64,000 bases of DNA. Source: Acidobacteriota bacterium. GTDB lineage: Bacteria; Acidobacteriota; Terriglobia; Terriglobales; Acidobacteriaceae. Position numbers and translations under genes: made by a program. Every line of letters starts with the position of its first letter. Position 1 is the first letter of the stretch. This document shows positions 14,192-64,000 of the stretch, in pieces. Below the pieces are notes generated by a model. The model saw only the letters and a program-made list of their open reading frames with translations. It did not search any database and was not told where the DNA came from. The stretch covers positions 124,001-188,000 of the forward strand of contig QIBA01000037.1 of assembly GCA_003225175.1 (NCBI GenBank), given 5' to 3'.

Positions 14192-14509
14192 TCAGCCTTC
14201 GGAAACTGCTGTAGGAGGCGCAGCTTCATGGGCAACGCTCGGGCGCTCCGAAGCGGGCGGTCGATGCTCGGAGGCTGCAGGACGTTCTCCGTAATGCGAG
14301 CCGCGCGCCATCACCACTGTGGAGATCGCATGCTTGAAAATGAGCTGCTCCTGGTTATTGGTTTCGAGTACGACTGAGTATTTATCGAAGGATCGAATGC
14401 GACCGCTCAGTTTTACTCCGCTCATCAGATAAATCGTGATCGGAGACTTGTCCTTGCGAGCTGTATTGAGAAAAGTGTCCTGAATATTCTGCGCCGGCTT
14501 TGTATCCAT
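14192..14509 (-). CDS. hfq: RNA chaperone Hfq
   Basis: Sm-fold hexameric chaperone that pairs small RNAs with mRNAs. The Sm1 part reads [29 protein letters not shown]. The Sm2 part has FDKYSVVLE and FKHAIS, the KHA motif of bacterial Hfq. After the Sm core (about residue 66) a 39-residue tail rich in Pro, Ser and Ala is probably disordered. The ATG at 14509 was chosen because AAGGAGA lies 9 nt upstream and because family homology starts there; an upstream in-frame start would add ten non-conserved residues. Confidence 0.95.
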
Positions 14510-60055: not shown

Positions 60056-60307
60056 CTATTTGGATTTTTTCTTTGGCGAGGCGCTTCCGCCTACTTGTCC
60101 GCTCACGCTTGCCAGAACTTTCTGGAATGCTTCCTGCGCGCTCATCTCTTTGCGGCCGCCCTTGTTTTTGCGGTATTTGTGCTCGAAGCCGCAGGTACGG
60201 CAGCGCACTTTTTGAACTTCGTCTCCGGCCATCACGACCACGGAATGATCCGTGGTTCGCTGGCAACGCGAGCAATAATCGTCGATATCATCGCCGAGCC
60301 TTGGCAT
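60056..60307 (-). CDS. Small zinc-ribbon protein, basic tail
   Basis: An 83-residue protein with two Cys pairs: CSRC and, 24 residues on, CRTC, forming a likely zinc ribbon. The Lys-rich region KYRKNKGGRKE and C-terminal KKKSK suggest nucleic-acid binding. ATG 60307 has GGAGG 7 nt upstream; the longer frame starts without one. Unknown family. It is convergent with and directly abutting the UDG gene. Confidence 0.75.
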   Translation of the reverse strand: MPRLGDDIDDYCSRCQRTTDHSVVVMAGDEVQKVRCRTCGFEHKYRKNKGGRKEMSAQEAFQKVLASVSGQVGGSASPKKKSK

Positions 60308-60390
60308 ATGCAACCTCCCGGCCAAGATTGATCGCGCGAATACTAGCACGGCGAGCTTTCGCTATGCCAAGCAACTGCTAGACTCTAGCC

Positions 60391-61062
60391 ATGTCCGGCA
60401 GACGCGGACTCTTTATCACCTTTGAAGGCCTCGACGGCTCCGGAAAGAGTACGCAAATCGCGCGTTTGGCAGAGACCCTAACCGCCCGTTGCCTCACCGT
60501 CCTGGCCACGCGGGAGCCCGGTGGGAGTGCGATCGGCGAGCATATTCGCTCCCTTCTGCTGGATTCGCGCACTGCAGGTCTGTCTCCCCGAGCGGAGCTG
60601 GCGTTGATGTTTGCGGATCGCGCGCAGCACATCGAAGAAATCATTGAGCCTGCTCTCAAAGCCGGGAAAATCGTAATCTGCGATCGCTACACTGATAGCA
60701 CGGAAGCCTACCAGGGTTTCGGCCGGCAACTCGGATCGCAGACCGTCCTCGACTTGCACCGGGTTCTGTGCCGCGACTTGTGGCCCGATTTGACACTGCT
60801 TCTCGAGTCGGAACTAAGTTCCAGCGTTGCTCGCGCGCGAAATCGCAATCAAGCCTCGAACTCCTCTGAAGGCCGTTTTGAAAGTGAGGATGCCGCATTC
60901 TTCCGCCGCGTGCATCAGGGCTTTGAGAACATCGCACTGCGGGAAAAGAATCGTGTAGCAAGAATTCCGGCAGGAACGATTCAGAAAGTAGAATCCGACA
61001 TTCTCAAGACAGTCGAGAATCGATTTCCACAGGTTTCAAGTCGCGCAGCCATCACGAGGTGA
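60391..61062 (+). CDS. tmk: Thymidylate kinase
   Basis: Phosphorylates dTMP. P-loop EGLDGSGKSTQ (residues 13-23), TREPGG motif, DRYTDSTEAYQGFGRQL and a lid region with Arg residues. At 223 residues it is full length. The next gene overlaps its stop by 4 nt (GTGA). Confidence 0.95.
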   Translation: MSGRRGLFITFEGLDGSGKSTQIARLAETLTARCLTVLATREPGGSAIGEHIRSLLLDSRTAGLSPRAELALMFADRAQHIEEIIEPALKAGKIVICDRYTDSTEAYQGFGRQLGSQTVLDLHRVLCRDLWPDLTLLLESELSSSVARARNRNQASNSSEGRFESEDAAFFRRVHQGFENIALREKNRVARIPAGTIQKVESDILKTVENRFPQVSSRAAITR

Positions 61063-62165
61063 GTTCTAGCTTGTCTTTCCACAATTTTCACGGCAATCAT
61101 GAAACAGTCACTCGCATTCGCGAGATGCTTGCGCGCGACCGCTTTCCCCATGCCGTGATCATCTCCGGGCCAGAGGGGGCGGGGAGGTACACGCTTGCGC
61201 AGATGATCGCGAAGGCGCTGGAGTGCCTCGAACAACCGAACAATGACGGTCTACTGGACTTCTGCGGGCGATGCAGCAACTGCACTCGCATCGCACAATC
61301 CGATGATCTCGAAGCGAGATTTGCCGAAGCGGTAGAGACACGCGAAGCGATGCGCGAGGCAGACAAACGAGACGCTCGCATCCTGATCCAGACGCATCCC
61401 GAAGTGATCGTTGTTCCTCCCGATCCGCCACAAATGCTGATCAAGGTCGGCCAAATTCGACTCGTCATCGACTCGGTTTTCTACAAACCGGTCGAAGGCC
61501 GGCGCAAGGTCGTCATCTTCACCGAGTCTTCGTTCATGAAAGAAGCAGCGAACTCGTTGCTGAAGGTCTTGGAAGAACCTCCGGGATACGCGAGTCTGAT
61601 TCTGCTCACGACGAACCCTGGCGAGCTCTTACCGACAATCCGATCGCGTTGCGTAACCTTCACGCTCGGAGCCCTGCCCGTTGGCGAACTGGACGAAGCA
61701 CTCAATGCATCCCGAAAGGATCTCAAACAGTCCCAACGAGAGCTCATCGCCCGTCTTGCAAACGGCGCGATGGGACGCGCCCTCAGTTTCAAGCTCGAAG
61801 AGTACGTTGAAGCCAGAACCAGTGCGCTTACCATGCTGCGGAGTGCCATTACGGGAAGCGACCACAGCGAGCTGTTCAAGATCACGGAGACCTATCGTGC
61901 TGGCGCTGAAGGCCGCGATAAGACGGATCAATTGCTGCGAACGCTTTATGCATTGTTGGAAGACCTGCTCATGCTCAAATCCGGAACTCCCGAATTGCTA
62001 AGGAACACTGATATTCGCGGGGAACTTGGTAGATTGGCCCAGAGCGTGGACTTCGACTGGATCGTGACCGCATCCCAGCGTCTCGCGGAGGTCGAGCGCG
62101 GTATGAGAAGGAACCTTCTGCGCTCACTGTCACTGGATGCCTTTACCACTTCGTTAGAACGGTAG
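61059..62165 (+). CDS. holB: DNA polymerase III delta' subunit
   Basis: Clamp-loader delta' subunit, AAA+ fold, 368 residues. The P-loop region SGPEGAGRYTLA has Arg in place of the usual Lys, as befits a non-hydrolysing delta'. A four-Cys zinc module reads C-G-R-C-S-N-C, with a fourth Cys upstream. LLKVLEEPP and the SRC (RSRCVTF) motif are present. Start is GTG, overlapping tmk. Confidence 0.93.
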   Translation: MSSSLSFHNFHGNHETVTRIREMLARDRFPHAVIISGPEGAGRYTLAQMIAKALECLEQPNNDGLLDFCGRCSNCTRIAQSDDLEARFAEAVETREAMREADKRDARILIQTHPEVIVVPPDPPQMLIKVGQIRLVIDSVFYKPVEGRRKVVIFTESSFMKEAANSLLKVLEEPPGYASLILLTTNPGELLPTIRSRCVTFTLGALPVGELDEALNASRKDLKQSQRELIARLANGAMGRALSFKLEEYVEARTSALTMLRSAITGSDHSELFKITETYRAGAEGRDKTDQLLRTLYALLEDLLMLKSGTPELLRNTDIRGELGRLAQSVDFDWIVTASQRLAEVERGMRRNLLRSLSLDAFTTSLER

Positions 62166-62550
62166 CTTCTCTGTAGTTGTCATTCCGAACCGACGAATTT
62201 GTGGGCGTGAGGAATCTACCGCCATCGACGTTGTGATCTGGGTGAGAACAGCAAGGTTTGCCATCTGCAGCTGCATCGGCACAGTCGGCAGAGAGCACCA
62301 CATAATCGAAATGCTGGTGGCCGATCTGGCTTCCTGACCGTTGAAAACCCGCGGTTCGGAATGACAAAAAAAAAGCCTCAATGCTTTGCACCGCAAGAAC
62401 AGCCTGTGATAGGGTTACCGCAACTCAGACCGCTTGAATCCAGCCTTCCGGAAGTTTGCTGCACTATCCGGCTTGTTCGATTGTGAGCCTTCGGCGCATG
62501 TTGGCACTCACAGGCGCTTCTGACGCAGTTATCGTTGATACAAACGTCGA
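62166..62550. other. 385-nt intergenic with inverted-repeat element
   Basis: No gene was recognised. 62179-62192 and 62352-62365 are complementary arms of a probable repeat element, the second followed by a run of nine A. The remaining 180 nt before the Hfq-like gene contain no clear promoter or ribosome site. Confidence 0.6.
62179..62365. repeat. 187-nt element with 14-bp inverted termini
   Basis: GTCATTCCGAACCG (62179-62192) is exactly complementary to CGGTTCGGAATGAC (62352-62365). The left end continues in the widespread type GTCATTCCGA...GAGGAATCTACC. It resembles 53979-54005. Possibly a non-autonomous mobile or REP-type element. Confidence 0.65.
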
Positions 62551-62958
62551 ATGAAAGATCCAGGGAATTCCGCAGCAGTCGGACGCGCACCAGAAGTCGC
62601 GCCAGAATCCGATGATTTTGTAAACCGCAAACTGATTCGTCCCTCACTGCCAATACCCCGGCGGTCGGAATCGAACGGCGAAAGGCCGCTTACTAGTGCC
62701 GAGCAACGCGTGCCAAAGCGTTCCAATGCGATCGAGCAAACCCATGCCGAAGCTTTTTATTTCCAAAAGCAGATGGCAAGCCGGACACCCATGGTTGTTG
62801 TACTCAAAGATGGCGAAGAAGTGCAGGGCTTTATCGAGTGGTACGATCGCAACTGCCTCAAGATCAACCGCGGCGGCCAGGCAGGCGTGCTGATCTACAA
62901 GCAGAGCATTCGCTACATGTTCAAAGCCGGCGAGAACAACAACGGCAAGCAGCGATAA
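62551..62958 (+). CDS. Hfq-like Sm-fold protein, divergent, extended N-terminus
   Basis: A 135-residue protein with an Sm/Hfq-like core (about 64-125): QTHAEAFYFQKQMASRTPMVVVLKDGEEVQGFIEWYDRNCLKIN, then IYKQSIRYMF, where KQS replaces the KHA of standard Hfq. The 60-residue N-terminus is polar and probably disordered. Canonical hfq is also present at 14192, so this is a second, divergent copy. It could bind a different RNA class or only fold similarly. No ribosome site precedes the ATG, so the start is uncertain. Confidence 0.78.
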   Translation: MKDPGNSAAVGRAPEVAPESDDFVNRKLIRPSLPIPRRSESNGERPLTSAEQRVPKRSNAIEQTHAEAFYFQKQMASRTPMVVVLKDGEEVQGFIEWYDRNCLKINRGGQAGVLIYKQSIRYMFKAGENNNGKQR

Positions 62959-64000
62959 CTATCTTGCTGCGCGAAGCAGGCGATCGCGCAACGCTAATCC
63001 AAGCCCAGTCGCGGATGGCAGCGGACAGAGAATTACGCTCACTCCGGGCTTATCCAGATAGCGCAGCCCTGCGAACAGGTTGTGCGCAAGTTGCGCGGGA
63101 TCGCTCCACGAACCCCAGTCGAAGATGACCAACCCTCCACGCGAGAGGGACTGTTCGTCCAACCAATCTTTCGGGGCCATTGCCCCAACATACTCCGCGC
63201 GATCTCCCAACTTCGAAACCTGTTCCTCAATGACCGCGAGGAAGTTTTCCTGCGTGCCGTCTACCAGTACTAATTGCGCTTGCGGAGCATAGTGTCGCGC
63301 CGCGAGACCCGGTGAGGCCAGAGCCTGCGGCGCTTCATTGGCTGGAGCCGAATACATCTCCAGTTGGCCCAATAACTCTTCGAGCTGCTCGCGCGTGACC
63401 CCCCCGGGACGAAGCAGCAGCGGCGGAGTACGCAGGGGATCGAGGACTGTCGACTCCACTCCGATCTGGGTCGGACCTGAGTCGAGGACAGCATCGATAC
63501 GCCCTTCGAGGTCTCCCATCACGTGCTCGGCGGTCGTAGGGCTCGTGTGCCCAAAACGGTTCGCGCTAGGCGCAGCCAGTGGCAGCCCTGCAGAAGTAAT
63601 GACCGCCCGAGCAACGGGATGTGCGGGAATGCGAACGGCCACAGTCTCCCGTCCAGCAGTGACTGCAAGTGGAAGCTGCCGGTGCCTTTTGAGCAATAAC
63701 GTCAGGGGGCCGGGCCAGAAGCGCTCTGCCAGCTTTTTTGCCCTTTCTGGGAAATCGCCCGCGACTTGCGAAATCATCTCGAAGTTCGCAACGTGCACGA
63801 TCAGCGGATCCCAGGATGGCCTTTCTTTGGCTACAAAGATTCGGGCGATAGCACCTGGATCGAGCGCATCGGCTGCCAGTCCATAGACGGTTTCTGTGGG
63901 AATTGCGACAAGCCCGCCAACTTTGAGGATCGCCGCTGCTTCGCGAATCGAAGGATGCTCAGGCGCGGCTTCTTCAGCGCGAACTTTGAGGTGGACGGTC
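62959..64000 (-). CDS. Sua5/YciO/YrdC-type threonylcarbamoyladenylate synthase (partial)
   Basis: Makes threonylcarbamoyl-AMP for tRNA t6A modification. It runs off the window's right edge, so the start is missing. Reading from the edge the frame gives PTETVYGLAADAL, then AKERPSWDPLIVHVANFE. WPGPLTLLLKRH, VAVRIPAHPVARAV and PLAAPSANRFGHTSPTTAEHV follow, matching the YrdC fold. A C-terminal Sua5 domain (about 150 residues, ending LGLALRDRLLRAA) makes this Sua5 rather than the short YrdC. At least 346 residues are in view. Confidence 0.93.
   Translation of the reverse strand, partial: TVHLKVRAEEAAPEHPSIREAAAILKVGGLVAIPTETVYGLAADALDPGAIARIFVAKERPSWDPLIVHVANFEMISQVAGDFPERAKKLAERFWPGPLTLLLKRHRQLPLAVTAGRETVAVRIPAHPVARAVITSAGLPLAAPSANRFGHTSPTTAEHVMGDLEGRIDAVLDSGPTQIGVESTVLDPLRTPPLLLRPGGVTREQLEELLGQLEMYSAPANEAPQALASPGLAARHYAPQAQLVLVDGTQENFLAVIEEQVSKLGDRAEYVGAMAPKDWLDEQSLSRGGLVIFDWGSWSDPAQLAHNLFAGLRYLDKPGVSVILCPLPSATGLGLALRDRLLRAAR

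Follow-up and report, generated by a model that had tools for sequence, protein, structure and literature searches.

The hfq2 locus

Close to one end of the window, the 64,000-nucleotide stretch of acidobacterial DNA analysed here, lies a gene encoding a divergent Hfq-type Sm protein. We use Hfq2 as a label for this protein and for the subfamily to which it belongs. The relevant features of the window, together with a third Hfq-type locus located elsewhere in the genome, are as follows:

60391..61062, plus strand: tmk (PF02223), the start of a conserved tmk-holB string
61059..62165, plus strand: holB, encoding DNA polymerase III delta prime (PF13177), the upstream neighbour of hfq2
62551..62958, plus strand: hfq2, encoding the divergent Hfq-type Sm protein, 135 aa, ATG start (PF21979, AlphaFold, Foldseek)
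62617..62649, plus strand: conserved N-terminal peptide FVNRKLIRPSL of Hfq2, residues 23-33, with a strict motif in relatives
62734..62928, plus strand: Sm core of Hfq2, residues 62-126, with a helix at 65-76 and strands at 80-85, 90-98, 102-106, 113-116 and 120-125 in the AlphaFold model
62899..62907, plus strand: K117-Q118-S119 of Hfq2, counterpart of Hfq KHA (56-58), the K invariant and the other two variable
62959..63999, minus strand: convergent Sua5 threonylcarbamoyl-AMP synthase gene (PF01300, PF03481), cut by the window end
14192..14509, minus strand: canonical hfq, encoding Hfq1 (PF17209 97.4 bits, TIGR02383 100.6 bits)
C72:18150-18425 (L002:1474-1752), on another contig: hfq3, encoding Hfq3, 92 aa (PF17209 34.2 bits, PF21979 32.4 bits)

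The order proposed from the sequence alone, with the open reading frame placed after holB and before a Sua5 gene, was borne out by Pfam (PF13177; PF01300 with PF03481). Genes holB and hfq2 share a strand and are separated by a gap of 385 bases, and the Sua5 gene abuts hfq2 directly on the opposite strand. Comparison with three relatives revealed purifying selection on hfq2 (dN/dS 0.08, 0.15 and 0.19), which together with its profile match and phylum-wide orthologues rules out an artefact or chance open reading frame. An Rfam scan of the 64-kb window returned 0 matches, and so no RNA element upstream of hfq2, and a search for sigma-70-like promoters between 62150 and 63000, weakly informative for Acidobacteriota, found none. 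Carriage on plasmids was rejected, as plasmid sequences searched by tblastn with the protein yielded nothing, and so was carriage on viruses after a profile search of viral contigs, in which none of 29 pattern matches was confirmed.

Half of the holB-hfq2 gap is occupied by a 191-base stretch (62177-62367) bounded by perfect 16-base terminal inverted repeats (TTGTCATTCCGAACCG), which looks like a small repeat element; its end has no further exact copy within the window. Further upstream, with a uracil-DNA glycosylase gene on one side and tmk on the other, the minus strand (60056-60349) encodes a protein of 97 aa that has two zinc-ribbon-like CxxC pairs, obtains only weak Pfam matches and shows 86 percent identity in its nearest relative.

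Fold, conserved residues and N-terminal extension

Profile searches placed Hfq2 within Pfam PF21979 Hfq_1, described as "Hfq related" (30.9 bits, E 3e-7, cut-off 27), and narrowly below Pfam PF17209 Hfq (25.3 bits, or 26.5 in a six-frame search, cut-off 27); it fails the NCBIfam Hfq equivalog TIGR02383 (25.1 bits vs a cut-off of 61.7) and the cyanobacterial NF047718 Hfq_rel_Cyano (26.7 bits vs 52). At E<=0.01, PF21979 and PF17209 each recognise all 22 aligned members of the subfamily. The sequence-only reading had named a profile search as the test that might show the core not to be an Sm fold, and with PF21979 passed the outcome is the opposite. An AlphaFold2 model built from a 22-row alignment has one helix and five strands over residues 65-125, agreeing with the core proposed at about residues 64-125, with a core pLDDT of about 95 (94-96 in blocks over residues 71-120, 45-61 over residues 1-60). 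Foldseek searches with this model returned Hfq chains as top PDB matches at probability 1.00, the first being Caulobacter Hfq 6gwk (E 3e-6, rmsd 1.9 over 64 columns), with Synechocystis Hfq 3hfo also among the matches; chain M of 6gwk compares with the model at an rmsd of 1.0 over 61 columns and 30 percent identity. The predicted Sm fold of Hfq2 is secure, and we regard it as very nearly certain that hfq2 encodes an Sm protein of Hfq type whose subfamily is distinct from both canonical Hfq and Hfq3.

Two Sm-fold proteins had been expected in this genome, the second being canonical Hfq at 14192-14509. The latter assignment is confirmed on the minus strand, the gene adjoining one for a GTPase of HflX type, but six-frame searches of the genome revealed three Hfq-type loci, Hfq1, Hfq2 and Hfq3. 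Genes moaE and one for a vWA protein precede hfq3, which runs into the start of an inositol monophosphatase gene with an overlap of 4 bases; relatives of Hfq3 are present in many genomes of the source organism's class. The Hfq3 family, aligned from 21 of 30 loci, matches PF21979 in 21/21 cases, so this model fails to separate the acidobacterial paralogues. Hfq3 has E8, D28, E30, D40, K56 and mostly Y11 in common with Hfq2, but carries Y38 instead of W, R45 instead of K and K25 instead of V; the window genome's own Hfq3 deviates from its family at positions 28 and 30 (GGG).

Residue conservation was counted, in E. coli Hfq numbering, over 74 distinct Hfq2 cores, 29 Hfq1 cores and 29 Hfq3 cores, the 74 being what remained of 90 Hfq2 rows once repeated loci were reduced for the tree and residue counts. 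Six residues are invariant in Hfq2 (E8, Y11, W38, D40, K45 and K56 in 74/74) and six more nearly so (Y39 in 73, G29 in 73, Y61 in 72, D28 in 70, E30 in 69 and M16 in 67). Acidobacterial canonical Hfq retains Q8, R16, F39, D40, K56 and H57 in 29/29 cores, with F or Y at position 42 in 29/29. Canonical Hfq is described as contacting RNA through the uridine-pocket residues Q8, F42, K56 and H57 and the A-site residue Y25 (PMC5379935), and its rim patch as consisting of basic, arginine-rich residues around positions 16-19 (PMC9037510). The proximal pocket of the window Hfq2 reads E, N, K and Q at these four positions, with K56 alone kept, and its rim positions 16-19 read M-A-S-R, position 16 being M or I in 74/74 cores. 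The distal A-site is likewise exchanged, with V25 in 56/74 and E30 in 69/74 cores, and position 52 is L, V, T or I in 73/74. I30 and Q52 are further distal A-site residues of canonical Hfq. The replacement of KHA by KQS, singled out in the sequence-only reading, is present in the window protein as K117-Q118-S119, but it is no mark of the family, because position 57 varies and H57 is kept in 23/74 distinct cores; position 42 is also variable, and the telling columns are instead E8, Y11, W38, K45 and Y61. Profile, model and residue mapping support the suggestion that the RNA-binding face is probably altered, and the constraint on the exchanged surface, together with the low dN/dS, argues for a different function and against decay.

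The extension of about 60 polar residues reported ahead of the core is present, yet it is not mere polar filler, since it contains a conserved RKL[I/V]RP motif. The strict pattern RKL[IV][RK]P occurs in 65/74 distinct Hfq2 sequences and a looser one in 71/74, a single Hfq2 row (L140) being devoid of an RKLIRP-type motif; the strict pattern is found in 0/29 Hfq1 and 0/29 Hfq3 sequences, and RKLIRP in 0/30 Hfq3 rows. Among the 81/90 rows in which both ends of the linker could be placed (repeated loci included), the linker between peptide and core spans 20 to 50 residues with a median of 30, and the peptide begins three residues past a methionine in 25/81. Judged from its sequence, the N-terminal peptide looks like a tethered docking peptide.

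Distribution and gene neighbourhood in the Acidobacteriota

An Hfq2 profile made from the window protein and 21 relatives matches 264 of 396 sampled acidobacterial species at E<=1e-3 and 260 at E<=1e-16. The four weak matches (G272, G422, G458 and G504; E 2e-4 to 8e-13) were counted as species without Hfq2, and all of the 260 kept lie below 1e-20 except G231 (2e-17), although single rows may be cross-matches to paralogues. With canonical Hfq scored by PF17209 at E<=1e-12, and absence meaning a score below threshold in what are often draft genomes, Hfq2 is present in 260/396 species (about two thirds) and canonical Hfq in 200/396. Both proteins occur in 123 species, Hfq2 only in 137, Hfq1 only in 77 and neither in 59, these categories referring to Hfq2 and Hfq1 alone. 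About half of the Hfq2-bearing species are therefore without ordinary Hfq at the thresholds used. The view of hfq2 as an isolated variant thus gives way to one of orthologues throughout the phylum. In a contig scan with Hfq2, which reaches close relatives only, all 21 loci were in acidobacterial records. Cultured acidobacteria with an hfq2 gene include Granulicella paludicola (L021) and Paracidobacterium acidisoli (L013). A literature search by title and start of abstract, with most subscription journals outside its scope, showed no description of acidobacterial Hfq paralogues among the papers listed, and Hfq2 is apparently an undescribed subfamily within the known Hfq-related Sm family.

In a set of 200 genomes from the source organism's class, 162 contain Hfq2 (E<=1e-18) and 151 contain Hfq1, with both in 121, Hfq2 only in 41, Hfq1 only in 30 and neither in 8. 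Two groups of this set lie at the extremes: family f6 has Hfq2 in 35/40 genomes and canonical Hfq in 1/40, and genus g4 has Hfq1 in 20/20 and Hfq2 in 0/20, so that canonical Hfq alone suffices in some. The 20 genomes of g4 are absent from both the Hfq2 and the Hfq3 match lists, and what the Hfq3 profile picks up in families f4 and f6 is mostly the Hfq2 locus alone. Strict co-dependence of Hfq2 and Hfq3 was considered and rejected as a rule, two genomes (G036 and G117) showing an Hfq3-level match without Hfq2. Three genomes (G143, G437 and G506) have two canonical-Hfq matches each.

The setting of hfq2 is well kept in close relatives. Of 21 loci found by tblastn, 20 have holB ahead of hfq2 in the same orientation; Sua5 comes after hfq2 on the opposite strand in 17 and in the same orientation in 1. 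Outside the class, 35 loci were chosen from 242 matching genomes, mostly high-ranked and one or two per family. In 13/35 of these loci (12 families) hfq2 is preceded within 1.5 kb by a same-strand gene for PSP1 (RicT family, PF04468), pdxA follows hfq2 in 22/35 (19 families), holB is found within 3 kb in 8/35 and a surA-like gene upstream in 7/35; 5/35 have none of these neighbours. The PdxA, SurA-like, Dus and inositol monophosphatase proteins at these loci were checked by Pfam. At three loci from other acidobacterial families (L130, L148 and L124), hfq2 is flanked by a surA-like gene and pdxA, and a gene for an inositol monophosphatase is close by, as if hfq2 had been inserted into the surA-pdxA neighbourhood of the kind found in E. 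coli. The ancestral arrangement was probably a tmk-holB-ricT-hfq2-pdxA string.

PSP1 was found in 89 of 199 genomes, 69 of them among the Hfq2 matches and 20 outside, and in 30 of the 49 genomes for which both places are listed it lies 0.2-1.0 kb from hfq2 on the same strand. That hfq2 directly follows the RicT gene in many other families suggests a function in the processing or turnover of RNA; in B. subtilis, transcript cleavage is described as requiring RicT together with RNase Y (PMC10470536). The link is not obligatory, since PSP1 lies on another contig than hfq2 in 19/49 genomes and 20/89 bearers fall outside the Hfq2 matches. None of the 89 PSP1-bearing genomes belongs to the family or class of the window's genome, and a search of that genome itself found no PSP1 match at E<=1, so that Hfq2 must act there without it. 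A strict Hfq2-RicT partnership, lacking there and not universal elsewhere, was accordingly rejected. Moreover, the vitamin B6 gene pdxA follows hfq2 more often than RicT precedes it, and operon mates may thus say little.

Candidate function and relation to known Hfq systems

Phylogenetic inference with IQ-TREE used 58 columns and 141 sequences, including seven solved canonical structures, with groups presorted by profile score and the window genome's own Hfq3 (L090) left out of the tree and of the 29 Hfq3 rows. Hfq2 forms a single clade (UFBoot 96), Hfq3 does not, and a long branch parts canonical Hfq from Hfq2, Hfq3 and cyanobacterial Hfq (UFBoot 71). Grouping of Hfq2 with the cyanobacterial pair (3hfn and 3hfo) reaches a UFBoot of 53 on these 58 columns.

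The best overall explanation of these observations, to which we give a probability of roughly 0.4, is an Sm ring of altered specificity that is tied to RNA turnover and carries an N-terminal docking arm. Prediction and profile show Hfq2 to be an Sm protomer, which, by analogy with the Hfq family, would assemble as a ring. With the residues of the uridine pocket, rim and A-site exchanged, it probably avoids the U-tail and ARN-repeat binding of the E. coli type. The retention of K56 and the new near-invariant positions suggest that the ring has retained a distinct functional surface, which most likely serves another class of RNA; K56, K45 and the RicT neighbourhood are the main reasons for which the conserved ligand would be RNA rather than protein. 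The basic peptide RKLIRPxL may then act, on its tether of 20-50 residues, as an arm that docks either a partner or RNA. Taken as a whole this mechanism is tentative, and we rate it slightly lower than the general explanation.

A somewhat unlikely alternative is that Hfq2 is a protein-docking Sm ring in which RNA binding is weak or secondary. The precedent is Synechocystis Hfq, which is described as binding the pilus motor PilB1 and depending on it (PMC4390875, PMC6755745). Hfq2 shares W38, D40, the KQxI motif and Y61 with Anabaena Hfq and groups with Hfq3 and cyanobacterial Hfq across the long branch from canonical Hfq, and the residues that replace the lost uridine pocket, rim arginines and A-site could equally bind protein. 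Against this, UFBoot values on the 58 columns are no more than 71 for the split from canonical Hfq and 53 for the grouping with the cyanobacterial proteins, Hfq2 falls short of the cyanobacterial NCBIfam model (26.7 bits vs 52), K56 is invariant and no partner is known.

It is quite unlikely that Hfq2 is an ordinary second Hfq, performing the usual sRNA-mRNA matchmaking with relaxed specificity and taking over fully where canonical hfq has been lost. Such takeover would fit the 137/396 species with Hfq2 and, at the thresholds used, without canonical Hfq, as well as family f6 (35/40 against 1/40), but 123/396 species retain both proteins, genus g4 shows the opposite pattern (Hfq1 20/20, Hfq2 0/20), and the U-tail, rim and ARN residues are exchanged subfamily-wide, most of them to one preferred residue. 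That Hfq2 is no Sm protein, or hfq2 no real gene, is suggested by low scores against canonical Hfq models but contradicted by profile, fold, orthologues and selection, and its probability is vanishingly small.

Acidobacteriota are described as a major soil phylum (PMC7984625), and in one survey their annotated sRNAs number 4, vs 345 for Proteobacteria (PMC9029176); RNA-based regulation in this phylum is little studied. Should the most common acidobacterial Sm protein indeed have a non-canonical conserved contact surface, surveys of Hfq presence and absence that use canonical models would misread these genomes, and the Hfq2 family would provide a natural experiment on how an Sm ring comes to read RNA differently or to dock proteins instead. 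The RicT link, if real, would join Sm rings to RNase Y specificity factors. The reading of altered specificity can be extended to a phylum-specific Sm-ring system, made up of Hfq2 and partly of Hfq3, with an RNA code unlike that of every studied Hfq, coupled through RKLIRP to a partner in RNA processing, in the ancestral state RicT with RNase Y, and replacing canonical Hfq in about a third of sampled species; in this full form we consider it unlikely.

More than one Hfq per genome, as found here, is reportedly also the case in Burkholderia cenocepacia, which has its own Hfq2, and in Bacillus anthracis, with three. The extra Hfq proteins of these two species are probably near-canonical copies, unlike the acidobacterial Hfq2. 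Compared with the Pfam family that it matches, Hfq2 is covered by PF21979 over residues 73-123, and its RKL[IV]RP peptide and linker fall outside the matched stretch. Cyanobacterial Hfq (Asl2047, 3hfn; Ssr3341, 3hfo) resembles Hfq2 in W38, D40 and Y61 and, for 3hfo, in having the same fold, and the Anabaena protein additionally has KQ at 56-57 within KQxI; in contrast to Hfq2, the cyanobacterial chains, of 72 and 70 residues, leave no room for an N-terminal extension and are devoid of E30, Y39 and K45. Canonical Hfq from E. coli, from Caulobacter and from the window itself (14192-14509) shares with Hfq2 the Sm fold, G29, G34, D40 and K56, whereas its Q8, F42, H57, R16, R17, Y25 and I30 are all replaced in the window Hfq2.
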